64,000 bases of DNA, taken from positions 2,728,001-2,792,000 of the forward strand of contig NZ_CP146373.1 in NCBI RefSeq assembly GCF_037055325.1, written 5' to 3'. The translations under genes and the position numbers were made by a program. Shown here piece after piece: positions 5,346 through 47,431 of this stretch. Numbering within the stretch: the stretch's first letter is position 1; each line of letters opens with the position of its first letter. This DNA is from Arachnia propionica (lineage in GTDB: Bacteria; Actinomycetota; Actinomycetes; Propionibacteriales; Propionibacteriaceae). The notes beneath the pieces were generated by a model. That model worked only from the letters and a program-made list of their open reading frames with translations, was not told the DNA's origin and ran no database searches.

Positions 5346-5355
5346 CTTCACGTTC

Positions 5356-8218: not shown

Positions 8219-8224
8219 CTCGCC

Positions 8225-10037: not shown

Positions 10038-10055
10038 TCCCCTCCCACACGAACC

Positions 10056-10118
10056 GCCGCCGAACCGGATTCACAGGACATCTTCCCCTCACCGTCCTGC
10101 TCGTCCCGGTTCGGCGGC
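10056..10118. terminator. Bidirectional terminator between the whiB-like and HAD genes
   Basis: Two arms of a perfect 13-bp inverted repeat (GCCGCCGAACCGG and complement) at 10056-10068 and 10106-10118. The loop contains a smaller CAGGAC/GTCCTG stem. It sits exactly between convergent genes. Confidence 0.65.
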
Positions 10119-10121
10119 GCT

Positions 10122-10901: not shown

Positions 10902-10977
10902 CGTTTCTCCTGGGTTCGTGGGGTCACTGACCCGACCAGCGCAAGGCACCCCCGGAAATGGCTCGCGGGCTGGAAGA

Positions 10978-12249: not shown

Positions 12250-12353
12250 GGGATGAACTCTACGCGGGTGTCGTGCGAAACCCGGTCGCAGGACCACGAT
12301 TCCCAGCCCCACCTTCCCACACCGGCTCATCCGGCTCGCGTCAACGGAGCACC

Positions 12354-13259: not shown

Positions 13260-13365
13260 CCGCACAGGGTATCGCCGTGTGACCCGCCGTGGCTGCGACA
13301 TCCCTTCGATGACCCCTCCCGGGAATATGGTCGTTTTTAACAAAACCCGACCGGAAGAGAACACC

Positions 13366-13944: not shown

Positions 13945-14051
13945 ACCACACCCCCACATCACCCCCGAGCGCATCGGGCCAACCGTGCACGCGACCGAAG
14001 AAGCAGATTCACCCACCGTGCGACGTGCTCTCGGAGGAGGCAGGCAGCGCC

Positions 14052-14747: not shown

Positions 14748-14897
14748 GGGTCCCAGTCTTACAGGATTACGGGGTCTCCCGCTGGCCTGGGGGCCATTTG
14801 ATGATTTCATCGACCACGGTGAAGATTTTGGTTGGTACACGCAGCAAAATCTTTCACAATGACATAATGCGGGTTGGGGTAGAAGGACGGTGAGAGG

Positions 14898-15593: not shown

Positions 15594-15721
15594 GCGTCCC
15601 CCGCTCCTGCATCATCACGGGTCGTCCCGGACCCGGAGCAGCCACGGGAGCTGCAGAAGAACGCGGCGACGTGTCCCCGTGAAGAGTGCGGATCCCGTCT
15701 CCGACGAGCACAATTGGGGCC

Positions 15722-32575: not shown

Positions 32576-32797
32576 GGCATCTACCTTCCCACAAGGCCCG
32601 AGGAAACCGGAGCGACGCTCGAGGTGACGACCTGGTTGGGCCAGACCCCTTCCCCAGGCTGGTTGATCCGGACCGCAACCCCTTGGGCGAGCAGTCCGTG
32701 TCGAGCCCACATGTCGCCTTCTGGAGGTTTTCTTCCGAAACTCCTCCATCCGGAGGGTCCTCCCGGGTAGTGTCAGCATCACCACACCCGGGAGGCA

Positions 32798-32947
32798 ATG
32801 ATGCACCACCGAACCACAATGACGGTCACCACCTTGATCCTGTGCGCCTGCCTGCTCCTGAGTGGCTGTTCAGCACGTGTCAGGCAGCGAGATCTCATAC
32901 GCAAGGACCCCATGAGGCTTATTCACAGACAGCGTGGCGGCCAGTAA
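32798..32947 (+). pseudogene. Lipoprotein gene fragment truncated by a mobile element
   Basis: GGAGG and tandem ATGs begin a lipoprotein signal (TLILCACLLLSGC, lipobox LSGC). The frame enters the 79-bp MITE at residue 39 and stops at 32947. The rest of the gene is absent, so this is the 5' stump left at the island border. Confidence 0.6.
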
Positions 32948-32992
32948 AACCCCTAGCCAGGGCGCACTTGAGGAAGGCTGTGAATAAGCCTC
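32914..32992. mobile_element. 79-bp MITE, copy 1
   Basis: Ends are perfect 15-bp inverted repeats (GAGGCTTATTCACAG and complement). The outer bases match the terminal repeats of the IS5-family element at 43142-44044 (GAGGCTTATTCAT). It has no coding capacity and is 79 bp long like copy 2, so it is probably mobilised by that transposase. Confidence 0.75.
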
Positions 32993-33543
32993 ATCATCGA
33001 TGGCACCCTTGATGTCCTGCTGGTCATGGTCGAAGCGTCCCGAACTGTACTCAGGCACACACCACACCACAGGAGTGAACCTGCAAGTGGCCTGCACCCT
33101 AGCCGGACACCTCGCCTGGATCTGCCCACCCCTGCCGGGTAGCGTGCATGACGCAAAGGCCATCAAGGAATCCGAATTCCTCACAACCCTCAATGGCCAA
33201 AGTCATATCGGAGACAAAAAGGCTTATTCACAGACGGCGCGCCAGCCAGAAAAACCCCTAGTCAGCGCACACTTGGGAAGGGCCGTGAATAGACCTCAAA
33301 GGCTACATCGGATTGGGAATGAGCACCCCCGCGAAGAAACCCGCCCATGGTGAACCCACCAACACCGACAGGAGAAACAACACGACCATCAACCGTGTCC
33401 GCTACCTCATCGAATGTGTCATCGCGAACCTCAAAACATGGCGTGTTCTCCACACCGATTACCGCCGCCCCTACAACACCTTCGAAACCACAATACAAGC
33501 CGTCACCGGACTCATCTTCGCCTACACCCCATGAATAAGCTTC
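32993..33543 (+). pseudogene. Remnant of an IS5-family transposase gene and its right end
   Basis: Translation from 32993 matches the second half of the transposase at 43151-43987, e.g. RPELYSG.HHTTGVNLQVACTLAG and VRYLIE.VIANLKTWRVLHTDYRRPYNTFET. The 5' half is missing, replaced by MITE copy 1. A second MITE splits the gene between GDK and GYIG. The element ends at the degenerate repeat ATGAATAAGCTTC (33531-33543). It is non-functional. Confidence 0.8.
33219..33297. mobile_element. 79-bp MITE, copy 2, inserted in the IS remnant
   Basis: Same length and ~80% similar to copy 1. The terminal repeats are slightly degenerate (AAGGCTTATTCACAG / C-GTGAATAGACCTC). It is flanked by AAA on both sides (33216-33218 and 33298-33300), a 3-bp target duplication. 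It interrupts the transposase remnant, so it arrived after that IS copy. Confidence 0.75.
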
Positions 33544-33939
33544 ATCGATTCGTGCTTCGATGCGGTCTGAGGCGATGACACTGGTACGTTCGAGGATTTC
33601 CTGGCCTGGCTGGCCGATGCTGACCAATCCACTATTACCAGTTCCGGAGGGTTTTGGTATTACGCGGTGGGCAATCTCGGAGAACCGGCGCGTCAGAAAG
33701 TCGGCGACCGCTCACCGTCCGATCACATCATTGGTCAGGTCAAGCAGGTAGCCTCGCCGTATCAGGGTCGAGGATAACTCGCATACGTGATGGTGGAACG
33801 TAGGGATCGACCTGAACGTGGCCAATAGCTAGTTGAATGCTACCGAGCTGGTAGGTGCCTGTGAGCTGTCTGTACGAGGCGCACCCCCGCTCATCGATGC
33901 CCATCGATTTGAGCGAGGGTACGCTCGAGAGCCCTGCGA
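33544..33939. other. Gene-free stretch in the island
   Basis: No supported gene. The short open frame at 33560-33751 lacks a ribosome site and similarity I recognise. It is probably decayed mobile DNA. Confidence 0.5.
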
Positions 33940-35148
33940 TTAGGCACGACCATCCTCGTTAACAGCAACGTTCTGGAGGCCGGGAAGCCTAGTGAGAGCT
34001 ACGCCGCCAAGTATTGAAAGCACGACAGCAGCAATTACCATAGCGGCGGTAAAGCCGGTCTGTTGGACACCAAACCCGGTCATTAGCGGCCCAACAGCCA
34101 AGCCTGCTGCGTACGCGAGGTTATAAAGCGCGAATGAACCGCCAAGCGTCGGAGGGGTCGATCGAAATCCTTGTTCGCTTATGAGCGTGGTGGCCGGGGC
34201 GAGCAGCATCGCCGACGAAAGTCCTAGAATGCCCATGCCAACACCGACCTGCCAGATGCTGGTCGACCAGCCGAGAACAAGCAGTGCGGCAACGACAGCC
34301 ACGATACCGATGCCGATAAGCACTCGAGGCGATGCTGAGGCGACGAATCTGCCCACGATTGGGTTCGCGATGATACTCACGAGCGCGGCGACGCCGAAGA
34401 GCACGCCGATCGTAGTGCTCGTCGCCTGTGCTCCCAGGTGGCCAGGAAGTACTGGTTGCACCGCAGCGAGGACCGCGGCCCCGATCGCGATCGCGGCAAC
34501 GATGGAGGCAGATCCCGGTACCCGAAGCACGGTGAAGGGCCCAGCTGTGTCATCGGTTTGTCGGGGCGACCCTGGAATGAAGGCTACTAGCAGGATGAGA
34601 TCAACGATGGCGACGACCGTTGCCACCAAGAATGGCGAGGCCGGCCCAAACGCGTCAACGAGGAAACCAGCCAACGGCGGACCGACAAGTACACCTAGAG
34701 TCACGGTGGACATTGCGATACCCATCATCTGACCACGTTTATCAAAACCTGTTGTGGCTGCAATGAGCGACAAGGCCGCGACCCATGCGACACCGCCAGC
34801 GATCCCCTGGACGAAGCGGGCGACCAAGAGGAGCCAATAGGGCCCGCCGGCGGCAAACAGTAGGGTCGCAATCGCTAGAACGATCAGACCAGTCACAAGC
34901 GGACCCTTCGGACCGCGGCGATCGACGAGGCGTCCAGCGAAGAGCGTGGCAACCACCATGGCTACCGCATACGAAGCGAAGAGGATACCGGTTGCGGCTG
35001 CACCTTGTTCGACGACTGCGGGTAACAGTGGAAGCACCGGGATGGCAAGTCCCTGGAGGAGCATATCGGTGAAGAGAATGGCTCCAGCCACGGCGGTGGC
35101 GCGGGCCGGAGTTGCACTCGCCGCGCGAGGGGTGGGGGTAGTAGTCAT
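33940..35148 (-). CDS. MFS efflux transporter
   Basis: Proton-driven drug/metabolite exporter with 12 predicted membrane helices in 402 residues. Motif A is present as FAGRLVDRRGPKGPLVTGL. The antiporter motif C region is GVLVGPPLAGFLVD. The N-terminus is Thr/Ala-rich. It lies 14 nt downstream of a TetR gene on the same strand, forming a typical self-regulated efflux operon. It might export the RiPP made nearby, which has no dedicated exporter, but nothing in sequence proves that. Codon use is less GC-rich than the core genome. Confidence 0.88.
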   Translation of the reverse strand: MTTTPTPRAASATPARATAVAGAILFTDMLLQGLAIPVLPLLPAVVEQGAAATGILFASYAVAMVVATLFAGRLVDRRGPKGPLVTGLIVLAIATLLFAAGGPYWLLLVARFVQGIAGGVAWVAALSLIAATTGFDKRGQMMGIAMSTVTLGVLVGPPLAGFLVDAFGPASPFLVATVVAIVDLILLVAFIPGSPRQTDDTAGPFTVLRVPGSASIVAAIAIGAAVLAAVQPVLPGHLGAQATSTTIGVLFGVAALVSIIANPIVGRFVASASPRVLIGIGIVAVVAALLVLGWSTSIWQVGVGMGILGLSSAMLLAPATTLISEQGFRSTPPTLGGSFALYNLAYAAGLAVGPLMTGFGVQQTGFTAAMVIAAVVLSILGGVALTRLPGLQNVAVNEDGRA

Positions 35149-35162
35149 CGTGAAGTGTGTCC

Positions 35163-35759
35163 TTAGATGTCGAGCAATCCCCTCACCAGCGCCGCGATAG
35201 CGGCATCAAGTTTGTCGGGTTGCGGAATGTCTTGCGGCCGAGTCACCGCAGTTACGGTGAACCCTTGAAGAAACGCGAGCACGAGGCTAGCGATTTCACC
35301 CGTTGCGGGGAGATCGCTGTCTCTCTCGGACTTGGAAATGAAGCCTTCGATGCGGTTGCGCCATTCGTCGAGGGCGCTGTTATGTTCGGAATACTCGAGG
35401 GCTTGCGGAGCAACGAGGACTGTCGTTGATACCAAGGAGCGGAATCGCGCGTCGCCGGCGAGGAGTCGAGTGAACTCAGTCAACAGTGCCTTCAAAGCAT
35501 CGTAGGCCGATGTTCCTGCCGCCTCGTTGTCTTGAACAAACAAGCGTTGCCCATAATCCCGCCAACCCCAATCAAGCGCCTCGGTCAGCAGGGCCTGCTT
35601 GTCGCGAAAATGGTGGTTCAACGCACCGCGTGTGACGCCTGCACGCTCCGCGACATACTCAAATGTTGCCCCCCTCCACCCCTTCTCCTCGAAGGACTTC
35701 AGCGCTGCTTCCAGCAGCGCAACGCGGGTTTTTGCCGCGTCTTCAGCAGTTCGTCTCAT
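35163..35759 (-). CDS. TetR-family repressor of the MFS gene
   Basis: N-terminal TetR HTH (residues ~12-58: LLEAALKSFEEKGWRGATFEYVAERAGVTRGALNHHFRDKQALLTEAL) and a C-terminal ligand domain, 198 residues. It is the first gene of the operon with the MFS transporter and probably represses both until a drug or signal binds. Confidence 0.9.
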   Translation of the reverse strand: MRRTAEDAAKTRVALLEAALKSFEEKGWRGATFEYVAERAGVTRGALNHHFRDKQALLTEALDWGWRDYGQRLFVQDNEAAGTSAYDALKALLTEFTRLLAGDARFRSLVSTTVLVAPQALEYSEHNSALDEWRNRIEGFISKSERDSDLPATGEIASLVLAFLQGFTVTAVTRPQDIPQPDKLDAAIAALVRGLLDI

Positions 35760-35989
35760 ACATACAAACTAGCACGTATCTTAATGGAGGTCAACAGCTC
35801 GAGTTGACTCTTCTCAAACCTTCGCCCAGACAGCTTCACTGCCTCACGCGATTTCCCCGACTACCGGGTTCATTGCCCCATGCGGGCCCCCGGCTAGACA
35901 TGACCGAGCATGGAGTTAACAATCAACCAACGGCAGACCGCGACAAAAAGGCGTTGACGTAACCGCAGTACTGATCGGACGAGCAAAAC

Positions 35990-36597
35990 CCGCACCTTAG
36001 ACGAGTTGGATGATCTGACCGGCTGGCACCATGACCACACCCGCACGGCACTGCATGAGGCACTGGCCATCAAACCGACCCAGCCCCGCCAGCCTCGACC
36101 CCAGGTCAACGGTGATGAGCTACTGCCTACCCTGGTCCAGTACTAGGTATCGCTGCGGGCCCCAACTAACAAGATCCTGACCCCCTCCATACCCGCGCTA
36201 GTGCCGTCGCTGCGAACCGAGGGCGAGATCACCGTAACCGATACCAAACCGAGCTGCTCACCCACGACGGCGGCCTCGCGACGGGCAAGTACTACTTGCA
36301 CGTTGACCATGACCGACATCGCCACCGGCTGAACCATCAACCAGTCGGTGCCCAACCGGGCCCGCAAGTGGGCCGTAGAAACCATCGGCCATGCCACCGG
36401 GCAGTACCCCGTTCCCGGTCAAGGGTATCGACTCCGACAACGGCAGCGAGTTCATCAACCACCACCTGCTCCACTACTGCGAAACCCACAAGATCACCTT
36501 CACCCGCGGCCGTTCGGACAAGAAGAACGACGGCTGCTACGTCGAGCAGAAGAACTAGGCACGCGTGAGAGACCTAGACGGCTACTACCGCTACAAC
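35990..36597 (+). pseudogene. Decayed integrase-core transposase
   Basis: Pieces of a DDE (rve-type) transposase are readable in shifting frames with several stops: RTLDELDDLTGWHHDHTRTALHEAL near 36000, SVPNRARKWAVETIGHATGQYPVPGQG near 36340-36425, then DSDNGSEFINHHLLHYCETHKITFTRGRSDKKNDGCYVEQKN to 36557. The DNGSEF and final E motifs of the catalytic core are recognisable. It is inactive. Confidence 0.7.
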
Positions 36598-36645
36598 TGA
36601 ACCGTCCTGGGTTTGGTTCCGATCTAGTTGAAGGAGAATTGGAAC

Positions 36646-36960
36646 ATGCCTAAGAAGTAACAGTCCAGAGTTGCGTGAGTGCGCGGTCCGATTGGTTCTA
36701 GAACGTCAAGCGGTCGAGGGAGGTCCGCGTTCGCGTTCGATCCGGGTCATCGCCCCGCAGGTCGGCGTTGGCGAGGAGACCTTGCGGTTGTAGTGCAACC
36801 GATACGGCCCCGAGGCAGAACCAAGGCCTGTGGCCGAGTCCTTGGAGGAACAGAACAAGCGCCTCAAGCGCGAGCTTGCCGAAGCCCGCCGCGCCAATGA
36901 GATCCTCAAGGCTGCGTCGGCTATTTTCGCCAGACAACTCGACCGCCCCACGACGAGATG
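36646..36960 (+). pseudogene. IS3 orfA remnant
   Basis: Starts ATG CCT AAG AAG then TAA. Further pieces of an IS3 OrfA HTH and leucine-zipper region (VAESLEEQNKRLKRELAEARRANEILKAAS near 36830-36915) appear in another frame. Stops and frameshifts inactivate it. Confidence 0.7.
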
Positions 36961-37872
36961 ATCCGGTTCATCGACGAACACCGTGACCGTTTCGGGATCG
37001 AGGCCATCTGCCGTACTCTGCGTGCGACCACGTGTGGGTTCATCACCTCCCGCGCCTATCGGGCCACCAAGACCCGCCCCGCCTCGGTGCGGGCCCTACG
37101 AGACGAGGTCCTGCTACCTGAGATCAAACGGATCCACCAGGAGAACTACAGCGTCTACAGGGTACGGAAGATGCACCACGCGATGCTGCGTTCCGGCTGG
37201 CAGATCGGTCGTGACCAGCTCGCCCGCCTGATGAGGATCGCCGGCCTCCAGGGCGTACGCCGCGACCGGAAACCACGTACCACACACCCTGCCGAACACC
37301 CCGATACCCGCCTCGATCTCGTCGAACGCCAGTTCACCGCCGAACGCCCGAACCAGCTGTGGGTTGCCGACATCACCTACGTGCGTGTCCTGACGGGATT
37401 GTGTTACGTCGCGTTCATCACCGACGTCTGCACCCGCCACATCGTGGGCTGGGCCGTCTCGGCAAGCCTGCACACCACAGGACTACCACTGCTGGCTCTC
37501 GAGCACGCCCTGCTGAGCACAAGCACCAGCCGCGGCCATGAAGGCCTGATCCACCACAGCAACAAAAGCTCCCAGTACGTCAGCCTGGCATACTCGGAGG
37601 CACTCACCACCGCAGGAGTAACAGCCTCCGTGGGCACCGTGGGCGACTCCTACGACAACGCCCTAGCCGAAACCGTCAACGGGCTCTACAAGACCGAACT
37701 CATCCATTCCAAACACCTGTAGGAGCCCATCGAGGCCGTCGAACTGGCCACAATGGAGTGGGTCCACTGCTGGAACACAGCCCGCCTGCACGAAGCCCTG
37801 GACTACCACACCCCCACGGAAGTCGAAGTCGCCTACACTCACCACCAGGACCCAACACCCGTTGCACCCTAA
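36958..37872 (+). pseudogene. IS3 orfB transposase, inactivated
   Basis: Encodes an IS3/IS150-type DDE transposase: FIDEHRDRFGIEAICRTL, PNQLWVADITYVRV (first Asp) and GDSYDNALAETVNGLYKTE (Glu). The normal HHSDRGSQY motif is HHSNKSSQY here, so the second catalytic Asp is lost. A TAG at 37720-37722 cuts the frame before the remaining 50 codons (EPIEAVELATMEWVHCWNTARLHEALDYHTP). Confidence 0.85.
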
Positions 37873-38067
37873 CCCCAGAAAAACTCAGGACGCTTCACCC
37901 TCTTCGCGATAGCCGCCCGGTCCCGTAACGTCAACACACGCCGCACCAACAACCCCTCCCTGACAAGCACTGGTGCTACGGCCCTTTGACACCACCCTCG
38001 GGGCTCTTTCTCGGTATGCCGCACTGCGGTTTTCCTCTTCTTTGCGCGTGAGTGTCGGTACATCTGG

Positions 38068-39300
38068 TTAGACCTGCAAGAACTCACGGATGTAGGACCA
38101 GATCGCAGTCTGGGCGAGACCGTTAATGCGAGCGGAGCTGTCGACATTATTAGCAGGTACCCCGGCAACAAACATGGCGTGACCACGACCCGGTACGATT
38201 TGGTGCTCAACCTGGGCGCCTGTCTCGGCCTGCTGTATCGCCGCAATGATTTCCTTCCCCATCAGCGACGCCGGCCAGAGCGTGTCGCTTTCCTGTGAGA
38301 TAAGGAGCGTGCGCGCTTTGATGCGCTCAACAGGCAGCCGCGCAGCCGTGTTGGGGGGAGCTTCCTGGACGGCTCTATCGTGGAACTTTTGTAGCAGTGT
38401 CTTGTCCAGAGTTTCATAGAACTCGTCGTCGGCGTCGAAGTGCAAGAACGGCAGAGGCTCACCGTGGAACGTCCAGGAAGAACGTGCCGGCGGCTTCCCG
38501 TTTTCCCGCACAGACTCCCACGTGTAGAGGGTGGGCGATAATGCGATAAGTTCATTGACACTCGAATCATGACTTGCCCACGCGAGCGCAAACTCGGCTC
38601 CTTTGGACATGCCGATCACACTCGTCCCTTTGGGGTCAATCCCTGACTCATTGTGCAAGCGTCTAGCGGCGTCCTGTGCGTATTCAAGCGGGATGTGCTC
38701 GATGGCCTTAGGGAGCCCATACTCTGCCCGCCAATCGAAGTAAGGTAATGCGAGCGCTGGCCTTCCTCGTGATGCGATGAGTGCTGCAATCTGGTTGCAC
38801 CAGTCGAATCCTCCCCAAGCACCTGGAAGGACGATGACGGCGCGGCTGTTACGTATATGAGTAGGCTTGTAGAGATTCGCTGTGGTCGTATTGGTACGCC
38901 ATTCGTGTCGAATAACGTCCGCGGTTGTGAAAGTTCGCACGAACTCGGTTGATGCGAGTGGGGCTCCTGTCGCGGGATCGCGCACGTTGATCAGAATGGT
39001 GAGTGGGTGCAGCGTGAACGAGATCTGATTCGTCCATCGGGCTGGTTCGTCAGGAGTGAGCTGATGAACAAGACCATGGGGGTCGTACCCGAGGCCGTCA
39101 TCGGCTTGTGAGGCCTGAGTGAGATCGATGCGGCCTGAGCTATCCGCGTGCACTTCGAGCGTACGAGACCATCGCCGTTGTTCGTGATCATTCGTCGAAA
39201 TCTCCACCGACAACGGCTGGTTGGGTGCGGCCCCTTGAAGGATAGCGGTGATGGGCTCGTCAACAAGGCCGTGAGGGGCGTGCGGGGCAAAGTTTACCAT
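38068..39300 (-). CDS. BAAT/acyl-CoA thioesterase-type hydrolase, last gene of the RiPP cluster
   Basis: Two-domain protein of 410 residues like bile-acid-CoA:amino acid N-acyltransferase and acyl-CoA thioesterases. The N-terminal beta domain (residues ~10-120, DEPITAILQGAAPNQPLSVEIST) precedes an alpha/beta hydrolase domain. That domain has VIVLPGAWGGFDW, nucleophile elbow VIGMSKGAEFAL (Ser), LLISQESDTLWPASL (Asp region) and PGRGHAMF (His). It lies 22 nt after the CPBP-like gene on the same strand, so it is likely in the operon. In a RiPP context it could acylate, hydrolyse or detoxify the product; that is inference. Confidence 0.82.
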   Translation of the reverse strand: MVNFAPHAPHGLVDEPITAILQGAAPNQPLSVEISTNDHEQRRWSRTLEVHADSSGRIDLTQASQADDGLGYDPHGLVHQLTPDEPARWTNQISFTLHPLTILINVRDPATGAPLASTEFVRTFTTADVIRHEWRTNTTTANLYKPTHIRNSRAVIVLPGAWGGFDWCNQIAALIASRGRPALALPYFDWRAEYGLPKAIEHIPLEYAQDAARRLHNESGIDPKGTSVIGMSKGAEFALAWASHDSSVNELIALSPTLYTWESVRENGKPPARSSWTFHGEPLPFLHFDADDEFYETLDKTLLQKFHDRAVQEAPPNTAARLPVERIKARTLLISQESDTLWPASLMGKEIIAAIQQAETGAQVEHQIVPGRGHAMFVAGVPANNVDSSARINGLAQTAIWSYIREFLQV

Positions 39301-39322
39301 AACAGAGGATTTTCTTTGACTT

Positions 39323-39955
39323 CTATAGGCGTTTTAGGACGAGGTATATAGTGGCAGCAGCGGTCACCACGGCGGGCAGGCTGCCGTTCATGACAAAGAC
39401 GAGAGCATGCACCAACCCGATGAGGGCGTTTTGAAACACGGCGAAGAGCGAGTGAAACCATGGTGCTCTCGGCGATATCACGAGAAATATTCCAAGTGCG
39501 ATGCTGACCCCGACACCTAGCAGCGGGTGGATGGGTGTCAGGCCGGTTTGAACTGCGCGCAGAAGAAGCTCCTGCCCCGTGACCACTACGAGGGCCAACA
39601 GAGTGCCGAGTTCGCCCTGCTGAAAGCGGCGCTGAGCGATGGTGAATGGGAGCGATGCTCCCTGGTAGGCGGCCCAGACCCATCCCGCAGTCCTCCTGGG
39701 GATCCGCGTTCCTCCCCAGCAGCGTGAGGCGGAAATCGTGCGGCCGAGCCATAGATACCCGTTGAGGAAAATCGTTGCCTCTGCGAGACCAAGACACAGA
39801 CCGGTAAGGACGGCTTCCGGCACAGAGACAGTCGACTGAGGCCAACCTACCGTAATTGACAGCGCAAGCCCGCCGATGAGGCCAACGCAGGCCACCGCGT
39901 ATGCTCGCCCGGATTCCCAGAGTAGCTGGCGACCGGACGTGTCTACGGTGGTCAT
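39323..39955 (-). CDS. CPBP-like membrane protein with degenerate motifs (210 aa)
   Basis: Six or so membrane segments. It resembles CPBP (Abi) intramembrane proteases but the first motif is GQELLLRA instead of EExxxR, so the catalytic Glu pair is reduced to one. LVHALVF could be the His motif. It overlaps the upstream intact CPBP gene by 4 nt. It may be a partner of that protease or an immunity protein. Confidence 0.65.
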   Translation of the reverse strand: MTTVDTSGRQLLWESGRAYAVACVGLIGGLALSITVGWPQSTVSVPEAVLTGLCLGLAEATIFLNGYLWLGRTISASRCWGGTRIPRRTAGWVWAAYQGASLPFTIAQRRFQQGELGTLLALVVVTGQELLLRAVQTGLTPIHPLLGVGVSIALGIFLVISPRAPWFHSLFAVFQNALIGLVHALVFVMNGSLPAVVTAAATIYLVLKRL

Positions 39956-40686
39956 CCGACCTCCTTCTGCGTTTCAACTGCCCGCATCCAACGCTGGTTC
40001 TGTGCCCACGAAAAGACGTTGATCACCAGATGGCCCACAATGGCAGGAAGCAGCGACCCAGTGAGCAGTGTGGCCCCTGTCAGCACGATGGCATATGTTG
40101 TCTTGAGGATAATCTGGTGCGTGCCGAAAGCATCATGTGATAGTCCGAAAAGCACCGCGGACACAACCAACAGCGAGATCGAAGTTGCCGGCACCCCAAT
40201 CCTGAGCGCCGCAAAGCTGACAATACCTCGATAGAGAATCTCCTCAAGGATCGCAACGAGACAGAGCTCCGGCAACGCCCATGGACGGGCGATGGCCAAC
40301 TTCTGCGGACTAGACCATTGGCAATAAATCTGGGCGATTCCGCCGGCTCTGGCAACCGGCGGATCGGTGTGTAGGCGCTCGTCAACGCTATTCGCCTTCC
40401 TCGCCGGTCGAGTCATTGGGTGCACGTACCGTGTCAGAGAGCACTCAGCTAGGACGAAGAGCCCTCCGAGCCCTAAGCCGATCAGCGCATGGACAGCGAC
40501 AGAGATGAACTCGTCGGGCACTAGGCGAATCGTGGCTCCAGCAACGATGCCTCCGAGGGCGATGGGCGTCATCGTGACAATGAAGACTACGCCGGGCCGC
40601 ACCAGCCGCCCTCGGCTGACGCACCAAGCGAGAACGTGCGCGCTTAGCGGTCGACCTGCCAAAGCAAGGGCTGTCAGAGCAATCAC
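39952..40686 (-). CDS. CPBP-family intramembrane metalloprotease
   Basis: Membrane protease with all three CPBP motifs: EEILYRG (residues ~165-171), FGLSHDAFG and HLVINVF. CPBP proteins accompany many bacteriocin clusters (SagE in streptolysin S) as leader peptidases or immunity proteins. It starts 16 nt after the YcaO gene ends and overlaps the next gene by 4 nt. The length of 244 residues is typical. Leader cleavage of the precursor at 45150 is the most likely job. Confidence 0.85.
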   Translation of the reverse strand: MIALTALALAGRPLSAHVLAWCVSRGRLVRPGVVFIVTMTPIALGGIVAGATIRLVPDEFISVAVHALIGLGLGGLFVLAECSLTRYVHPMTRPARKANSVDERLHTDPPVARAGGIAQIYCQWSSPQKLAIARPWALPELCLVAILEEILYRGIVSFAALRIGVPATSISLLVVSAVLFGLSHDAFGTHQIILKTTYAIVLTGATLLTGSLLPAIVGHLVINVFSWAQNQRWMRAVETQKEVG

Positions 40687-40701
40687 TCCTGCCTTCCAGC
40701 C

Positions 40702-42078
40702 TTATGCGTAGGGATGCGGAAGCATAGTTTCCGCGACCGGCCCATACGCCTGGAAGCGTGGGTGATTTAGCGGCGGGGCACTCGGCAAACACAGGCTCAT
40801 GGTGTCGGGAGACCAGACTCGAGGTACGTAGAAACCTAGCCTGCGAGCTTCAGGCGTGGTGCAGTCGGAGAACACGAGCTCTGCGCCGAGGCGTCTGTAG
40901 CCGTCGATCACTGCATCGATCTCAGAGCGAACGTCCAGCGCTCCATCAGCAGGTAGGTCATCGGCATCGATAGTTTGGTCTTCGGGGAACTTCTCATCGA
41001 GGATAGAGGCGCCATCAGGTCGCGCATAGTGGGCGACGTTAGCGTCGAGATCGAACATCTGTGTGATGTCCGTCGTGCGCGCGCCAACGGCGCCATCCAC
41101 AAGCTCGGGAGATATTCGCAACATCTTCGACAATTGGACCCCTGCTGCGGATTCGAGGAATGCCTTATAAAGCGATTCTTCGAGACTGGAGGCGATACCT
41201 AACCCAAGGTTATGTCCCCTTCCCGACCCCCGGCGGCAGCGCATCACACACGCAGTGACGTGAACGTTGAAGCCCGGCAATTCGAGGTAATGGAAGGTGG
41301 GTGTCACTTGCGAGCCAGCCAGATGCCGTTCAAGCAGCGCTTTAAGTGCCGTGGTGCGTTGACTGAAACGCACTCGGGGCGCAACACGGTCGGTGTACCA
41401 GTGACCCATCGCTGCGTCTCCGTGAATCAGTTCGTAGAGCGCCGAGCGGATCGCGAGTTCGGGCGAGGTGTGGGCCGCACTACCAGTCGTGACGGCAGAG
41501 TTTAGCCACGGCTCGCCCTCACGTTTACGGAGCTGGTACCCGATGTAGAGCAACTGTGCTGGCGCCCACCGTTTCTCGCCAGTGATAAGGGAACGAGTCG
41601 GTGTCCATGTTATGGGGGAATCCGGTTCGAGCGGGGAGTAGGCAAACTTCTCCTGCGTGTACTGTTCGTCGCGGAACGGGCGCGCGAAGGGCCCGACAAG
41701 AGTGGACCTGCCTGCTAAAGTCATCGAGGCCTGTGTTTCGAAGATGCTCTCGTAGTCGGCAGTAAGCGGTTTGACGACTTGGGCATAGCGTTCGACTGTC
41801 TCGCCCACGCTACGAATCAGGGCTTCTTCAGTATAAATACCGCATCCACCAATATGATAGGTGAGACCACTCTTGCGTCCAAGGAGGCACTCAACACCGG
41901 TCAGCTGTGCGCCGGAGACGATGATCCGTGGTTCGTCGCGGCCACGCATCATGAAACCCAGAGTGCGGCTGAGTCCGGTAAGTGGGCTGATGATTCGGCG
42001 AGCCAAACGGTCGAAGTCGGGTTTCAGCCGCGGGTGATGGTCCGTTGAGGACAGGTTGATGCTACTTGAAGTAGTCAT
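40702..42078 (-). CDS. YcaO cyclodehydratase of a TOMM RiPP cluster
   Basis: ATP-dependent enzyme that phosphorylates backbone amides and cyclises Cys/Ser/Thr to azolines. The 458 residues contain YcaO family stretches: GCGIYTEEALIRSVGETVERYA (ATP-site Glu residues), TTGSAAHTSPELAIRSALYELIHGDA, LGLGIASSLEESLYKAFLESA. The Pro-rich C-terminus (PPLNHPRFQAYGPVAETMLPHPYA) is characteristic of azoline-forming members. ATG overlaps the stop of the RRE gene by 4 nt, as expected for partner proteins of one complex. Confidence 0.92.
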   Translation of the reverse strand: MTTSSSINLSSTDHHPRLKPDFDRLARRIISPLTGLSRTLGFMMRGRDEPRIIVSGAQLTGVECLLGRKSGLTYHIGGCGIYTEEALIRSVGETVERYAQVVKPLTADYESIFETQASMTLAGRSTLVGPFARPFRDEQYTQEKFAYSPLEPDSPITWTPTRSLITGEKRWAPAQLLYIGYQLRKREGEPWLNSAVTTGSAAHTSPELAIRSALYELIHGDAAMGHWYTDRVAPRVRFSQRTTALKALLERHLAGSQVTPTFHYLELPGFNVHVTACVMRCRRGSGRGHNLGLGIASSLEESLYKAFLESAAGVQLSKMLRISPELVDGAVGARTTDITQMFDLDANVAHYARPDGASILDEKFPEDQTIDADDLPADGALDVRSEIDAVIDGYRRLGAELVFSDCTTPEARRLGFYVPRVWSPDTMSLCLPSAPPLNHPRFQAYGPVAETMLPHPYA

Positions 42079-43121
42079 TCCGCGATCTCCTCCAGTGTCC
42101 GTGTCCCGAAGTACAGCTCGAAGTCATCACGTTCTGCCACCGACATACCTACAGTACTATCAGGCAGTGGAAGGATTTCGTGAACAGCGAACTCTGAGGT
42201 TGGGGCAAAGAATGAGTAGGCGTGAAACATGGTTCCTGCCGTGCCTGTAGTCACCCATGAAACCGCTTCGGACAAGAGATGGGCAGAGAGAAGCTGAGCG
42301 AGCACCGGCTGCACCTCGAACGTCTTGTCCTGACTGACGCGGCCTTGCGCGAGAGCCTTCTTATAAGACTGATACGAGGAGCTTTCGCGAAGGTTCATCA
42401 GCATACGTGTTTCATAGGCGTCCCAAGATGGCGTGCGCCTCGGCACGGTCGTCGGACCCACGAGGACGAACGGGCCGTCAACGACACCATAGAGCCAAGG
42501 CACCTCAAAGTAGTCCATGATTCGATCCACGATTCTAGCCCTCACTGGATCAGCTACCGCCTCAGTGTAAATGACGAAGCTACCGCGCAGACTCTCGAAC
42601 CGCTGCATCTGGCGATGAAATTCCAAACCATCTTCCAACCAAACTGCATCGGCGTGGGTCAACGATGCCAAGGGGTGGCCCTCATTGGCGAGCGTAATCT
42701 CTAGTTCTGGCATTGTTTGCGCCAGCCCCATCTGCAAAGATTCAGAAATCTCGGCGGGGCCGACGATAACCACAGATTCGAAGTGTTTACGAAGAGGGGA
42801 ACGTCGACCTTGAATCAAGTCAACGTACTGGTCGAGGTAGTTATCTGCCTCCGCAGAGACAATTTCCTTCCCCTCGAGATACTCAACTACCGCGCAAACG
42901 TCCTCGCTCTCCTGACAGGTTTCCTTCGCAATCTGTTCAATAGTGTGCTCGCCGTCGAGTAATGCGATGGTGGACGCAAGCTTGCCTGACTCTGATTCGT
43001 CGCTCAGCGTCGTAGATGTCGGGTTCCATACTCCATAACGGAACTCCACGCGGTTGACATCATGCACAACGACTGAGTAGCGATTCTTCACACTATAAAG
43101 GCTATTCTTCTGCACGCTCAC
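42075..43121 (-). CDS. RRE-containing E1-like partner protein of the YcaO cyclodehydratase
   Basis: TOMM leader-peptide-binding protein (cyclodehydratase C protein). Residues ~10-85 form an RRE winged helix (VEFRYGVWNP ... STIALLDGEHTIEQIAKETCQESEDVCAVVEYLEGKEIVSA). The remainder is a ThiF/E1-like domain without a zinc tetrad that I can see. It presents the precursor to YcaO. The native start is GTG 43121 (GGAAGGA seven bases upstream). A longer frame from 43154 begins inside the inserted IS and is an artefact. 348 residues. Confidence 0.88.
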   Translation of the reverse strand: MSVQKNSLYSVKNRYSVVVHDVNRVEFRYGVWNPTSTTLSDESESGKLASTIALLDGEHTIEQIAKETCQESEDVCAVVEYLEGKEIVSAEADNYLDQYVDLIQGRRSPLRKHFESVVIVGPAEISESLQMGLAQTMPELEITLANEGHPLASLTHADAVWLEDGLEFHRQMQRFESLRGSFVIYTEAVADPVRARIVDRIMDYFEVPWLYGVVDGPFVLVGPTTVPRRTPSWDAYETRMLMNLRESSSYQSYKKALAQGRVSQDKTFEVQPVLAQLLSAHLLSEAVSWVTTGTAGTMFHAYSFFAPTSEFAVHEILPLPDSTVGMSVAERDDFELYFGTRTLEEIAE

Positions 43122-43141
43122 GAGATGTTCCTTCCAACAAT

Positions 43142-44044
43142 GAGGCTTATTCATGGGGTGTAGGCGAAGACGAGTCCCGTGACGGCTTGTATTGTGGTTT
43201 CGAAGGTGTTGTAAGGGCGACGGTAATCGGTGTGCAGGACACGCCAGGTTTTGAGGTTCGCGATGACACGTTCGATGAGGTAGCGGACGCGGTTGATGGT
43301 CGTGTTGTTTCTTTTATCGGTGTCGGTGAGTTCACCATGGGCGGGTTTCCGGGCGGGGGTGATCATTCCCAATCCGATGTAGCCCTTGTCCCCGATATGA
43401 TTGTGAGCATTGAGGGTTGTGAGGAATCCGGATTCTGTGATGGCCTTTGCATCATGCACACTACCTGGCAGGGGTGGGGAGATCCAGGCGAGCTGTCCGG
43501 TCAGGGTGCAGGCCACTTGCAGGTTCACCCCCGTCGTGTGGTGTTTGCCTGAGTACAGTTCGGGACGGTCGTGCCACGACCAGCAGGGCGCCAGAGTACC
43601 GTCGATGATGTACTGGCGGTCTGGGTCGAGGTCCCCCGTGCCGGGCACCCAGGCTTGGAGGGCCTCGGCGATCAAGGGAGTGTAGACCGCCACTACTCTC
43701 GAGATGGTGGCTTGGGAAACCGTGTGGATGTCGGCCAGTAACTCTTGGGTGAGGTTGTGTCTGAGTGTTAACACAGTGATTTGGATACAGCGGAACAAGC
43801 CTAGGGCACGGGATCCTGCTACAGGAAGGTTTCCGGAACGGGATGTGTGGATCAGTTCACACAGGTCAAGGATCTGATCACGCTCAAGGATCGTGGTAGT
43901 ATTCACGGCAGCGGCTTGTCTTTCATCTGAGAGTCTTTGTAGTAGAACACTTTGAATTGTCTCAGATCGGGCAAGCCGCCCCCACATCCCCCTCGGATAA
44001 AGCGTTAGTTGGAGAAAGCCAAAACACCCCTATGAATAAGCCTC
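43142..44044 (-). mobile_element. IS5-family insertion sequence, intact
   Basis: A 903-bp element with 13-bp inverted repeats GAGGCTTATTCAT and a 3-bp target duplication AAT (43139-43141 and 44045-44047). It carries one transposase gene in the direction of the RiPP operon. Relatives in the window are the remnant at 32993 and the two MITEs, all sharing the same end sequence. Confidence 0.88.
43151..43987 (-). CDS. IS5-family DDE transposase
   Basis: A 278-residue transposase of the DDE_Tnp_4/HARBI-like type. An N-terminal HTH-containing part (LTQELLADIHTVSQATISRVVAVYTPLIAEAL) precedes the catalytic core. That core holds YIIDGTLAPCW (first Asp), GSVHDAKAITESGFL (second Asp region), HIGDKGYIGLG and VRYLIERVIANLKTWRVL (Glu). 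The frame is complete, so the element may still be active and could supply transposase to the MITEs. Confidence 0.88.
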   Translation of the reverse strand: MWGRLARSETIQSVLLQRLSDERQAAAVNTTTILERDQILDLCELIHTSRSGNLPVAGSRALGLFRCIQITVLTLRHNLTQELLADIHTVSQATISRVVAVYTPLIAEALQAWVPGTGDLDPDRQYIIDGTLAPCWSWHDRPELYSGKHHTTGVNLQVACTLTGQLAWISPPLPGSVHDAKAITESGFLTTLNAHNHIGDKGYIGLGMITPARKPAHGELTDTDKRNNTTINRVRYLIERVIANLKTWRVLHTDYRRPYNTFETTIQAVTGLVFAYTP

Positions 44045-45007
44045 AATGACTGAATGAATGTAGGTTTCGAATAGCCCGTCGATTCCCAGAAGGTCATGCA
44101 CCTCGTCATCACACAGGCTTCCGCACTCCACTGCTCCCAGGTTGAGCGCAGATGCAGCCAATTCCATCAACGCGGCGATGTGACCGGCTTCGACGAATAG
44201 AAATCGCAGTCCTCGGGCTCCGTACTTCCGCATCGACCGCCACGGTCTACCGGCAAGGATGAAGACGACCGAGGACCGCGACATGTGCTCCTGGTCAGGC
44301 GGGGAAATACAGGTATCAACAATTTTTGTCGCATCGGCGGCATTGGGAGTGCGTATCAACGCATGACGTCGTTTGTCGTACCGGTGCACGACAGGGCAAA
44401 GCCCTTCGACCCGCAGGGGTAACACGTACGCGTCGAGCGGTCGCAGGCCCCCACCGTTCGCTGCTGCATAGAGCGGAAATTGAACTTCATCGCCACTGCT
44501 GAGTTCTACACGAGCCCGCCCCGTTTCAGCGAGGCTATGCCCAATGATATCGGTGAGTTGTTGTAAAGAAATCGCTTCTGATTCGAACGAACGGCGGCTA
44601 CGTCGTCCCATGATAGTCTCACCAAGACCAGCGTCGATAGTTCGTGGAATCGGAAGAGGGATTACGTCATCGGGGTGTGCGTCTTCCTGACCAATGAGCG
44701 AGACGGTCCGCAGGCCTTCATCGCTGAAGTAGGGGCGCGTGGAGACCTGAACTCTCACGTCACCTCGCGCCAAACGGGAAGCAAGGAGGTACTGTTCTGC
44801 GATTCGACTACTGGGCCCTTGCCCCAAGGTTCTGTGTGTCAGTTCGGATGAACGCAACCCGGTTGACCGGATGGACGGCTGCCAAGTTTTATATCCATTA
44901 TTGATGGCGAGATGCCTCAGCTCGGATGAGGACAGCAGGAAACCACTTTCTACTTCCTCGGCACCTAGTGGTTTGTGGTTGATTTTTCGAGCAGGTCGAT
45001 CCGACAC
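44030..45007 (-). CDS. SagB-type dehydrogenase of the RiPP cluster, C-terminus altered by IS
   Basis: FMN-dependent nitroreductase-fold enzyme that oxidises azolines to azoles. Residues ~120-325 carry the domain: GRRSRRSFESEAISLQQLTDII, YAAANGGGLRPLDAYVLPLRV, FLFVEAGHIAALMELAASALNLGAVECGSL. The GTG at 45007 has AGGAGG upstream. The last codons (EAYS) come from the IS end. Without the IS the frame would continue VGRNIS and stop in a GTGA overlap with the RRE gene. Only the extreme C-terminus is changed, so activity may persist. 325 residues. Confidence 0.87.
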   Translation of the reverse strand: MSDRPARKINHKPLGAEEVESGFLLSSSELRHLAINNGYKTWQPSIRSTGLRSSELTHRTLGQGPSSRIAEQYLLASRLARGDVRVQVSTRPYFSDEGLRTVSLIGQEDAHPDDVIPLPIPRTIDAGLGETIMGRRSRRSFESEAISLQQLTDIIGHSLAETGRARVELSSGDEVQFPLYAAANGGGLRPLDAYVLPLRVEGLCPVVHRYDKRRHALIRTPNAADATKIVDTCISPPDQEHMSRSSVVFILAGRPWRSMRKYGARGLRFLFVEAGHIAALMELAASALNLGAVECGSLCDDEVHDLLGIDGLFETYIHSVIEAYS

Positions 45008-45149
45008 ATGTCCTCCTCATATGTTCTTTTTCAAACTTCAGCAACACGTCTGCCGGGCGGAGTCGACCTCCGGGCGTTAATGGCGCACCCAGAGGCCAAC
45101 TACGTTAACCCGCTTGCAGAGTCGCGAGCCGGTCAATGGCGACGTCGAC

Positions 45150-45284
45150 TCACTCGTCGTCGACGGTAACGACCGCAGCCGTCGTGGTGCCAGTGGTCCC
45201 TGCCGGAACCACCATCTGTACACCAGCGTCGTCGTTATGCGCGAACGTCCGCTGCTCGGCTACTTCAGTGCTGTTGAGAAGCAT
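45150..45284 (-). CDS. Putative RiPP precursor peptide (44 aa), Thr-rich core
   Basis: Short gene immediately upstream of the dehydrogenase, with an excellent ribosome site (AAGGAGG, 7 nt from ATG). The leader (residues 1-29) starts MLLNSTEVAEQ and is acidic. The presumed core is TTGTTTAAVVTVDDE, with Thr at 30, 31, 33, 34, 35 and 40 and no Cys or Ser. YcaO substrates must be Cys, Ser or Thr, so only methyloxazol(in)es are possible here. The leader/core boundary is inferred from composition. Automated callers would probably miss the gene. Confidence 0.75.
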   Translation of the reverse strand: MLLNSTEVAEQRTFAHNDDAGVQMVVPAGTTGTTTAAVVTVDDE

Positions 45285-45623
45285 GACTCAACCTCCTTGA
45301 TTACTACTCCTCCGAACGCCTTTCGCTCGGAAACTCGGAGCTGCGATTCCTCGCATGCTCAAGTTAAGCGCGGAACGAAGCGCGTCTCTAGTCCGGAAAT
45401 ACACGGACAGGGTGGCGCTTGACGTCGATACGAGCTATCTTGTATGTATCCGGCTTGGAGGCAGAAGGCCTGCTGTTACCGACACGAGGGCGAAGGCACT
45501 GAACCCGCGAACCGCTATACCGCGGAGCGTGAAGGGCATGCGCCCAACTTGAACTAGGAGCGCAGGACCAACGCACGACTTCCTCCCGGGAGCATTGGGG
45601 TAGCAGCGGTTAAAGGGGTGACT
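45285..45623. promoter_or_regulatory. Divergent control region between precursor and LuxR gene
   Basis: 339 bp without a supported gene, separating the leftward RiPP operon from the rightward regulator. A possible rightward -35 TTGACG lies at about 45419. I see no convincing operator repeat. The open frame at 45355-45552 lacks a ribosome site and is probably chance. Confidence 0.4.
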
Positions 45624-46271
45624 GTGAAGAAGCGTTCTCTTCGAGCGGAGAGATCCGGAAGCCTTTCGGGGGTCAAGGGGCTTGTCAATCTAGATCCGTT
45701 TTGCGAAGCTCTTGAAGAGTGTACAAGACGAGGCGCTAGTGAAGAATTTGATGGTGTACGCTTTCGGATGCTGTTCGACTGTATGCATGAACGCATCAGT
45801 TGGGGCCTCAAACTGGTTGAAAATATTGGCGATCTGTCAGAAGATACTGTCGCAGTTACGATCGCTGCAACTCTTTCGGGTAGCCCCTTTCGGTTGACTG
45901 GGCTGCTACCACTCCTGACTTTCTCTAGGGAACGCGCACTCCAAGCACTGGTTGAACTCGAAGAACTCAAGGTTGTAGTCACACTCGAGGACCAGTACCG
46001 GACCTTCGTTTTTCTTCACCCAGAATCACGTTCTCCTGACGACAGTCAGGTTGGGGCGGCTTCCGACCCGAGCCCCCGAGAACAAGAAGTAGCCAAACTT
46101 ATCAGTCAAGGCCTAACCAACTACCAGATAGGGGTGCGACTTGGGGTGAGCCAGCGCACGGTCGAGACATACATTCAACGCCTCTTCAGAAAGCTCAACG
46201 TAAGTTCACGCTCCCAGATTGTGGCTTGGCATATATGTCAGGAGGCTGCACTTCGTTCCGCCGAGGGTTAA
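45624..46271 (+). CDS. LuxR-type HTH regulator of the RiPP cluster
   Basis: A C-terminal GerE/LuxR HTH (residues ~150-210, DPSPREQEVAKLISQGLTNYQIGVRLGVSQRTVETYIQRLFRKLNVSSRSQIV) is preceded by a ~140-residue N-terminal domain I do not recognise. It is divergent from the precursor gene, so probable activator of the operon. GTG 45624 has AAAGGGG five bases upstream; GTG 45618 is two codons earlier. 215 residues. Confidence 0.85.
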   Translation: MKKRSLRAERSGSLSGVKGLVNLDPFCEALEECTRRGASEEFDGVRFRMLFDCMHERISWGLKLVENIGDLSEDTVAVTIAATLSGSPFRLTGLLPLLTFSRERALQALVELEELKVVVTLEDQYRTFVFLHPESRSPDDSQVGAASDPSPREQEVAKLISQGLTNYQIGVRLGVSQRTVETYIQRLFRKLNVSSRSQIVAWHICQEAALRSAEG

Positions 46272-46288
46272 CGGCTCTCTTGGCCTTA

Positions 46289-46962
46289 AGGCGTTATTCA
46301 CGGGGTTGATTGTGGGCGTATGTTCTTAGGATTTCTAGGTTGGTGGCGAGGTGGATGATTCCGGGGAGTTCTTTGAGGCGTCCGCGGTAGCCGTGTGACA
46401 GGATTCTCCAGGTTTTCAGTTGTGCGATGCAGTGTTCGATGTTGACGCGGATTCGGGCGATGGCAGTGCTGAAGTCTTTGTCGTGGTTGGTGCGGGACTG
46501 GTTGGGCGGTTCCCGGTAGGGGGCATGGGTGCCGTCAGTGAGGATGAGGTGTCCTTGCTGGATCGCTTCGGCGAGTCCACCAGGGAGGAAGAGCAAGACT
46601 GTTTCGAGGAGGACAGTGATACGTCGCCAGGGTTCTGGAGATCGTGGGCTGACAGACTCCCAGGAGGTCGGCGACCACCATCTGGGGCAGGTTCTGGCGA
46701 AGGATCAGCAGGCAGGCCACCACCTGGTCCCGCAGGGAGATACGGCATGTGGATAGATTCTTCCCTCGACCTTCGATCACATCGGCGATACGGCAGGTGA
46801 TCTCGTCACTTGTTTCCTCGGAAAGCCCCGTTGCATGCTGGTAACGCATCGGCTGCTTTCGTGATTGGTTTATGTTGCAACTCAATCATTTCATGAAACA
46901 GTCGATGCTTTTTGTATTACTGGCGGCGTTTCATCGAGAAACAACCCTCGTGAATAACGCCT
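46289..46962 (-). mobile_element. Truncated IS5-like element with broken transposase
   Basis: Ends AGGCGTTATTCAC and its complement (46289-46301 and 46950-46962) enclose only ~670 bp. Two frames remain: the N-terminal part (46885 leftwards: LSEETSDEITCRIADVIEGRGKNL ... LLGVCQPTISRTLATYH) and the C-terminal part (46596-46294: LTDGTHAPYREPPNQSRTNHDKDFS ... RVNIEHCIAQLKTWRIL). They are frameshifted and shortened between the first Asp motif and the Glu region. It is non-functional and belongs to a different subgroup from the 43142 element. Confidence 0.78.
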
Positions 46963-47431
46963 AAAGAATCATGACAACAGCCGAACAAGAAAACTGGACA
47001 GAAGACGAACCAGCCTCCAGGTCAGGAACCAGCAAATAGGCCCAGAAGAGAACCCGAGGAGGAACAATGCTTCTACATGTTTCAATACTGGCAACAGGAT
47101 GCATGCAATACCCCGAAACAAACTTGATCATGCTCCTCGGAATTTCCACTGGTTAGCGACAGCGGTGGCGGCCCTTCCCGGAATTGTCTGCTCCGCTGTC
47201 AACCGTTTTTGGGCAGCGGATTGCAGGGGCCTCGGCGCCGGCTGCGGGAAACCCCCGGGGTGACGCATCCAGACTGCGAACGTAGCGGTGGTCAATTCCG
47301 CGGACCGAACCGATCGTCACCCGCGGGGAGCCTGCGCGGGCGGATGGTCGTGCAGGCGGAGAAACGGGACGAGACCCTGTCCGAGCCAGACGACCCGCTC
47401 AGTCAGCTGACGGAGAACACGCCGCCCCGGC
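46963..47431. other. Gene-free stretch at the right edge of the island
   Basis: 469 bp with no supported gene. The first ~190 bp is lower in GC like the island; from about 47190 the composition returns to that of the core genome before topA. The right island boundary is therefore near 47150-47200. No att repeat was recognised. Confidence 0.45.

Follow-up and report, generated by a model that had tools for sequence, protein, structure and literature searches.

More than 20 families of thiazole/oxazole-modified microcins (TOMMs) have been described, and the parts of Cox et al. (2015; PMC4603692) considered here characterise their clusters by separate C and D proteins, a B dehydrogenase and a short adjoining precursor whose core is approximately 45-65% Gly, Cys, Ser and Thr. 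In the same parts, cytolysin clusters are described by a Gly followed by at least 10 heterocyclisable residues, ATP-binding cassette (ABC) transporters and a CaaX-like protease, and the predicted propionisins of Propionibacterium by multiple CaaX-like proteases, ABC transporters, cytolysin-like contiguous cores, mostly two or three precursors, and a core extension free of Cys, Ser and Thr. Clusters resembling that of streptolysin S occur in Mobiluncus and Propionibacterium (PMC4513790, in part), and muscoride A is a bis-5-methyloxazole (PMC7231064, in part). Here, we analysed a 64,000-nucleotide stretch of Arachnia propionica (contig positions 2728001-2792000 of a 3.31-Mb, single-contig genome), hereafter the window, whose minus strand carries from 45284 to 38068, in transcription order, genes for a precursor peptide, a SagB dehydrogenase, an insertion sequence (IS), an E1-like protein, a YcaO cyclodehydratase, a CPBP protease, a second CPBP-type protein (CPBP2) and a BAAT-type hydrolase. 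We consider it likely that this is a laterally acquired cluster of the TOMM or linear azol(in)e-containing peptide (LAP) type, making an azol(in)e peptide by a chemistry proposed from homology. Its biosynthetic genes are the following:

45150..45284, minus strand: precursor peptide gene, 44 aa, with VVPAG at residues 25-29 and then TTGTTTAAVVTVDDE; open reading frame (ORF) and comparison with Brachybacterium
44030..45007, minus strand: SagB-type flavin mononucleotide (FMN) dehydrogenase; KYGARG at residues 261-266; TIGR03605, E 5e-23
42075..43121, minus strand: E1-like/Ocin-ThiF putative leader-binding protein, 348 aa from GTG 43121; weak TIGR03603/TIGR03882 matches and a fold match
40702..42078, minus strand: YcaO cyclodehydratase of SagD type; PF02624, E 2.6e-39; TIGR03604, E 1.1e-52
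39952..40686, minus strand: CPBP intramembrane protease, presumed leader peptidase; PF02517, E 2.1e-10; motifs EEILYRG, FGLSH and GHLVIN intact
39323..39955, minus strand: CPBP2, degenerate, with QELLLR where CPBPs carry EExxxR
38068..39300, minus strand: BAAT/acyl-CoA thioesterase-type hydrolase of two domains, PF04775 and PF08840; GMSKG with Ser232

The maturation proteins were those of a known chemistry. The YcaO protein passed the cut-off of PF02624, reached 179 bits with the SagD model TIGR03604 (below its cut-off of 219), and displayed SVGETVERY from residue 90 and a PHPYA C terminus, which is PHPYA, PHPYP or PHPFP in all nine relatives aligned. The SagB protein, a frequent but non-obligatory dehydrogenase component of TOMM/LAP clusters, passed the cut-off of TIGR03605 and kept RKYGx(R/K)G, which is present in all eight sequences aligned. 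The E1-like C protein expected beside YcaO matched its models weakly and below their cut-offs; its assignment is supported by fold, the AlphaFold model (nine sequences; predicted local distance difference test (pLDDT) 78.0, predicted template modelling (pTM) score 0.60) having as nearest matches TruD (E 6e-15), LynD (4e-14), MccB (7e-10) and the McbBCD complex (2e-9), with low TM-scores of 0.31-0.41 by query length among the matches listed. Two CxxC motifs were found in all seven distant E1 proteins and are absent from the E1 proteins of the window and of Brachybacterium timonense; paired CxxC motifs of this sort may bind zinc. A first, sequence-only reading of this DNA had taken YcaO, a partner with a RiPP recognition element and SagB as an azol(in)e set (RiPP: ribosomally synthesised and post-translationally modified peptide), and this held, all three maturation proteins being present together with a real precursor. 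Judged by homology, the gene set is thus that of an azol(in)e TOMM/LAP RiPP pathway and not of a new class. Other YcaO-containing RiPP pathways do make other backbone modifications, such as thioamides or amidines, but that the YcaO of the window does so is highly improbable, since an E1 partner with a SagB dehydrogenase is the azole set, PHPYA or a related C terminus ended 10 of 10 aligned YcaO proteins, and TfuA had no match among the ORFs scanned.

The precursor ORF is preceded, 7 nt upstream, by AGGAGG. The 12 ORFs of at least 20 aa in 45008-45617 were compared with the corresponding locus of B. timonense (L005), where the 44-aa ORF was conserved end to end with 91% identity. Nucleotide identity reached 87.4% within it, as compared to 72.5% and 73.4% in its flanks; the 17 differences were distributed as 2, 2 and 13 over codon positions 1, 2 and 3 (0, 0 and 4 from residue 29 on), and the ratio of nonsynonymous to synonymous substitution rates (dN/dS) was 0.08. 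Overlapping ORFs were likewise conserved (plus strand 45136-45300, 92% over 51 aa; 45114-45422, 62% over 96 aa; minus strand 45077-45223, 65% over 46 aa), as their overlap with the 44-aa ORF would bring about. The codon-position bias and the low dN/dS indicate, by this comparison, that this short frame is a genuine gene and not a chance one. The heterocyclisable residues of the core, TTGTTTAAVVTVDDE, are Thr only, with no Cys and no Ser: it reads TTGTTT, then AAVVTVDDE, leaving at most six Thr available for ring formation (T30, T31, T33-35 and T40). If the core begins after Gly29, Gly, Cys, Ser and Thr make up seven of its 15 residues (47%), within the range given above for TOMM precursors.

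The cluster has two close relatives. A scan of genome contigs retained seven loci out of 19 candidate stretches, and the YcaO proteins of Bowdeniella nasicola (L004) and B. timonense were each 91% identical to that of the window. DNA identity to the window was about 80% over 38063-42906 (Bowdeniella) or 38063-43143 (Brachybacterium) and over 33543-35794, and the Brachybacterium locus further aligned at 74% over 44044-45949 and 77% over 45945-46243. Gene order, including the TetR and major facilitator superfamily (MFS) genes beyond BAAT, was kept in Brachybacterium, and in Bowdeniella up to the contig end. The Bowdeniella contig starts inside E1 and is therefore absent from the SagB, E1-start and precursor comparisons; a SagB search of that genome gave a best match of only 29%. 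The two loci were 99.8% identical over 10,227 bases, which must be the outcome of recent transfer; Bowdeniella belongs to the Actinomycetaceae and Brachybacterium to the Dermabacteraceae. Across nine genes, from precursor to MFS, dN/dS between window and Brachybacterium was 0.06-0.31 (for SagB, the GTG of the window was paired with the codon after the relative's ATG, so that the first residues are approximate). By this measure, the cluster genes were under purifying selection before the IS insertion described below.

More distant loci, for which no published name came to light, shared the SagB, E1, YcaO and CPBP genes with the window, at YcaO identities of 44% in a Chloroflexota genome (L006), 39% in Oceanitalea (L007), 36% in two metagenome-assembled genomes (MAGs) of Chlamydiota (L008 and L009), 29% in Dictyobacter (L010), where CPBP precedes SagB, and 42% and 40% in two genomes of the window's class (L015 and L016). 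They differ from the window in having glyoxalase-like genes (L006, L007, L015), luciferase-like monooxygenases (L008, L015, L016) and, in five of them, Cys/Ser-rich cores. On the same side of SagB, five of the six loci whose precursor end could be read (L007, L008, L010 with two, L015 and L016) had a small ORF of the form M-(K/R)-(L/I)...(V/L)PG(A/G) followed by a Cys/Ser/Thr-rich core, a form that in four begins at an internal Met of the ORF and whose junction resembles VVPAG of the window precursor; in L006 no precursor was recognised, and L009 begins within SagB. In L010, L015 and L016, the precursor ORF has an ABC ATPase gene on the other strand at a distance of no more than about 0.5 kb. 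As separate observations, the Parachlamydiaceae MAG L008 carries at 5710-14338 a TOMM-like cluster with a Cys/Ser-rich small ORF, SagB, E1, YcaO, two CPBPs and a luciferase-like monooxygenase, beyond which lie ORFs judged by eye to be TolC- and HlyD-like. A radical-SAM gene stands between SagB and E1 in L015 (5433-7016, PF04055) and, by likeness, in L016 (5827-7221); in scans, L015 showed a glyoxalase-like gene upstream, and both showed a luciferase-like monooxygenase downstream.

As to frequency, and counting the window's genome each time, matches were found in 1 of 146 near relatives (E<=1e-25), 3 of 394 genomes of a class sample and 1 of 396 of a phylum sample (both E<=1e-40), and 10 of 197 genomes of the family (E<=1e-12), of which the nine besides the window's own showed no more than 25-34% identity. 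A plasmid search with YcaO gave 24 records, all below 60% identity. The 16S gene of the window genome was at best 89% identical to records of the plasmid collection, the nearest being of Tsukamurella and Arthrobacter types, which points to Actinobacteria. In a midpoint-rooted YcaO tree of 17 chosen rows, which omits the third YcaO of the window genome (L003), most plasmid matches and the weaker family matches apart from L057 and that of G005, the three-member window clade was supported at 100/100. Seven end branches were long, two of them (L057 and L. intestinalis) meeting, and only the window clade was therefore relied on.

Compared with TOMM/LAP systems in general, as described in the cited parts of the literature, the window likewise has C and D proteins as separate chains, a B dehydrogenase, a short precursor and a CaaX-like protease, and differs in its Thr-only core, its E1 without CxxC, its BAAT hydrolase and an MFS gene with no ABC gene found. 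It shares with the propionisins, as far as the cited parts describe them, a discrete cyclodehydratase and, if the degenerate CPBP2 is counted, more than one CaaX-like protease; membership of that group was considered for this reason and rejected, since no ABC gene was found among the island ORFs scanned and the core is not of the cytolysin-like type, Thr40 lying in the tail. This separation is by description, no authentic propionisin sequence having been compared; the nearest other YcaO in the 197 family genomes (L057, with an ORF that looks ABC ATPase-like by eye) served as a propionisin proxy and was 28-30% identical. With the streptolysin S and listeriolysin S clusters, the window shares the SagB-C-D and CaaX/CPBP protease set. 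This set, the VVPAG ahead of the core, and a YcaO tree in which the window and L057 fall to one side together with the L. intestinalis row (a record annotated as listeriolysin-S family), a weak placement because two long branches meet there, might suggest a streptolysin-type cytolysin. Such a product is nevertheless very unlikely, and TOMM cytolysin membership was rejected: TTGTTT followed by AAVVTVDDE contains no run of at least 10 heterocyclisable residues after a Gly, which the cited parts of PMC4603692 give as defining together with ABC transporters, and no ABC gene was seen among the island ORFs scanned (sets of ten, two and ten proteins, not every short ORF being among them). The absence of an ABC exporter had already been remarked in the sequence-only reading, and it was confirmed within that scan.

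The muscoride pathway, whose rings derive from Thr, resembles the proposed pathway in its methyloxazole chemistry, and MusD was the only PDB sequence matched by YcaO at E<=0.01 (8.4e-4). It differs in that MusD is a single 784-aa chain, as opposed to the separate C and D proteins of the window, and in that muscoride bears a prenyl-like group, while no prenyltransferase was seen among the ORFs scanned. A literature search returned no paper on the cluster among those listed and none on B. nasicola or B. timonense with YcaO; most subscription journals were outside this search, and the absence of papers is therefore no proof that the cluster is undescribed. Calling it uncharacterised, as was done at the outset, is accordingly fair for the cluster, and less so for the kind of system, which is already known. 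In the text of PMC4603692, the words thioesterase, hydrolase and luciferase are absent, as are SagE, CAAX and CPBP from the searched part of PMC10885120.

The cluster lies within a genomic island, delimited as follows:

32711..47425, no strand: genomic island between the tmk-side gene and topA; flank alignment to congeners

Indeed, the window aligned to two close congeners (L042 and L043) at 78-92% over 29-32.7 kb and 47.43-54 kb, and between these flanks the congeners had 3.6 kb (L042) and 2.5 kb (L043), none of it aligning to the island. Two further congeners (L044 and L045, 67-78%) had about 1-1.4 kb between the last tmk-side match and topA, so that the island is missing from all four. It carries IS remnants at 32992-33543 and transposase pieces at 46294-46885, and GC content was 0.55-0.59 over 38-46 kb, against 0.59-0.69 in the remaining 2-kb steps of the window. 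As the congener flanks aligned without it, the segment 32.71-47.43 kb is, by this alignment, an island acquired laterally in a variable spot.

The order of precursor, SagB, E1, YcaO, CPBP, CPBP-like protein and BAAT with a divergent LuxR gene, as originally proposed, was recovered with every named gene present; what that order left out is an insertion sequence between SagB and E1:

43142..44044, minus strand: IS5-family insertion sequence; transposase 43151-43987; PF13359, E 8e-25

This 903-bp element has the inverted ends GAGGCTTATTCAT, with AAT directly outside both ends (43139-43141 and 44045-44047), a 3-bp repeat short enough to arise by chance. Counting this one, the genome has eight copies that are full-length or nearly so (84-100% identity), out of 20 matches overall. 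The SagB frame continues into it, the last SagB codons being IS sequence, and the ATG proposed for E1 by the ORF finder (43154) lies inside it; the GTG at 43121 agrees with the Brachybacterium start, and in that genome the SagB/E1 junction is seen without an IS. Because the element stands between SagB and E1, the operon may be incompletely expressed in this genome, and the expression of E1 and all genes downstream may be reduced or altered. A decaying remnant, silenced here by the IS and without product while relatives elsewhere may produce, would be in line with a multicopy IS at this junction, with further IS pieces at 32992-33543, 36958-37722 and 46294-46885, and with the fact that in B. 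timonense, too, the LuxR-type gene next to the cluster is interrupted. We regard this as a minority prospect that deserves to be taken seriously: all compared frames were open except for the C-terminal tail of SagB, E1 retains its own GTG start, the transposase has the same orientation as the operon, and dN/dS was low in all nine genes, although this mostly reflects the time before insertion.

The CPBP protease is a CaaX-like protease as in TOMM cytolysin clusters, its residues E148, E149, R153, H184, H219 and N223 being invariant in eight aligned sequences. CPBP2 had no match in Pfam or NCBIfam, its link to CPBPs being made through relatives only, and it carries QELLLR, not EExxxR, in the window, Bowdeniella and Brachybacterium; the Glu pair is retained by the second CPBP of L006, L008 (Rce1-like, E 4e-8) and L015, whose row in the alignment begins at an arbitrary in-frame codon. 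Profile comparison by hhalign of CPBP2 with CPBP1 gave a probability of 89.9 (E 1.7e-6) with six sequences and of 7.7 with the window/Brachybacterium pair alone. The CPBP2 model (pLDDT 75.6) found no fold match at E<=0.001, and its CPBP assignment therefore rests on sequence links. The window thus has one intact and one degenerate CPBP, to be set against the multiple CaaX-like proteases of propionisins. The BAAT protein passed the cut-offs of both its domain models, and aligned with human ACOT2 (3hlk, E 1.9e-20) across the nucleophile, GMSKG facing GISKG. In the BAAT family, Ser instead of Cys as nucleophile points to hydrolysis and not to N-acyl transfer. The sequence-only reading had set the BAAT-type hydrolase and the paired CPBPs apart from the streptolysin S and thiopeptide sets. 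For the pair there is a precedent, as propionisin clusters contain multiple CaaX/CPBP proteases, and among the distant relatives L006, L008 and L015 also encode a second CPBP.

Beyond BAAT, and upstream of the precursor, the island contains:

36958..37722, plus strand: IS3-like (rve, HTH_21) transposase, between BAAT and the TetR/MFS pair; PF00665, E 1.2e-15
35163..35759, minus strand: TetR-family regulator adjoining MFS; PF00440, E 2.4e-15
33940..35148, minus strand: MFS transporter, candidate exporter or self-resistance pump; PF07690, E 2.9e-43
45618..46271, plus strand: LuxR/GerE-type regulator, divergent from the precursor; PF00196, E 1.8e-17

The order BAAT, TetR, MFS was found throughout the window clade. 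BAAT, TetR and MFS could be mere neighbours outside the pathway, in line with the lack of any BAAT or MFS match in the stretches examined of the seven distant loci (L006-L010, L015, L016) and with the IS3-like transposase gene that parts BAAT from TetR/MFS in the window. This is rather unlikely: BAAT begins 22 nt beyond the stop codon of CPBP2 and shares 82% identity with its Brachybacterium counterpart (dN/dS 0.12), while TetR (78%, dN/dS 0.15) and MFS (90%, dN/dS 0.06) hold the same place beside that cluster, where no IS3-like transposase separates BAAT from TetR. Moreover, BAAT homologues occurred in only 2 of 295 other genomes of the class (E<=1e-20), neither of them closer than about 9 kb to a YcaO match. 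The MFS gene had been put forward as a possible substitute for the missing exporter; it indeed stands next to the cluster in two other genera as well, at 90% identity, which circumstantially strengthens its candidacy for export or self-resistance. In Brachybacterium, a gene at 14568-16280 overlapping the MFS end encodes an ABC-class P-loop ATPase (PF09818), not a transporter by its models; in the window, homology to it (33543-33940) ends at 33543, where an IS fragment starts. The LuxR homologue has the same place there, at 3278-5570, with an rve-type transposase gene (3652-4926) breaking into it. An Rfam scan of 32000-48000 gave no match.

From a mechanistic point of view, the E1-like protein would bind the leader of the 44-aa precursor and present it to YcaO, which, with ATP, would cyclodehydrate core Thr residues to methyloxazolines; SagB would then oxidise some or all of these to methyloxazoles, in keeping with the roles of B, C and D proteins in the cited parts of PMC4603692. 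The intact CPBP protease may cut off the leader near VVPAG, perhaps with its degenerate partner, the MFS protein may export the product or protect the producer under TetR and LuxR control, and the BAAT hydrolase may tailor or degrade the peptide. We infer these chemical steps, the cleavage site, export, regulation and the BAAT role from homology; the gene set, homologies, catalytic motifs, purifying selection, lateral transfer and IS insertion are read in the DNA itself. Several points weigh against an azol(in)e-making cluster. The TIGR models for YcaO and E1 were matched below their cut-offs, and none of eight precursors, that of the window included, found an NCBIfam family at E<0.01 (weak matches at E 0.018-0.057, three in all, were dismissed as chance). 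The core lacks Cys and Ser, which are abundant in the cores of relatives, and the IS replaces the SagB end and parts SagB from E1, so that the cluster may be decaying here. A scan of 44900-45700 found no promoter or terminator, which for promoters says little because only 0.2 promoter-like sites were expected by chance.

The novelty of this cluster lies in a Thr-only core, an E1 that lacks the cysteines, an MFS gene that travels with it, the BAAT gene and the 99.8% interfamily transfer, while the class of chemistry is standard. We tentatively propose, at slightly less than even chances, that the window, Bowdeniella and Brachybacterium clusters form an undescribed TOMM family: Thr-only poly-methyloxazole peptides exported by MFS, with BAAT trimming, acylation or inactivation and an E1 that has lost the paired cysteines of its relatives, on a cassette mobile among actinobacterial families. 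If so, the RiPPs would gain a subfamily whose substrate is Thr-only, in which the choice of residues by YcaO/E1 pairs could be studied; in the distant relatives, CxxC-bearing E1 proteins go together with Cys/Ser-rich cores. MFS export and a BAAT-type hydrolase would also enter a pathway in which the cytolysin and propionisin groups, as described, have ABC transporters. The nearly identical copies in Bowdeniella and Brachybacterium show that such clusters have moved recently.

Two further loci were noted on the same contig. A second TOMM-like locus at about 1.878-1.885 Mb (L080:3781-10621) has a YcaO below the TIGR03604 cut-off (E 2.4e-57), a SagB over that of TIGR03605 (E 2.1e-32), an ABC ATPase gene and a neighbouring membrane protein that weakly matches YhgE/Pip. 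At about 2.996-3.001 Mb (L081:8600-14411), the third YcaO match of this genome (35% over 143 residues) accompanies a weak SagB-like ORF (E 7.7e-7, below cut-off) and two CydCD/MsbA-like ABC exporter genes.

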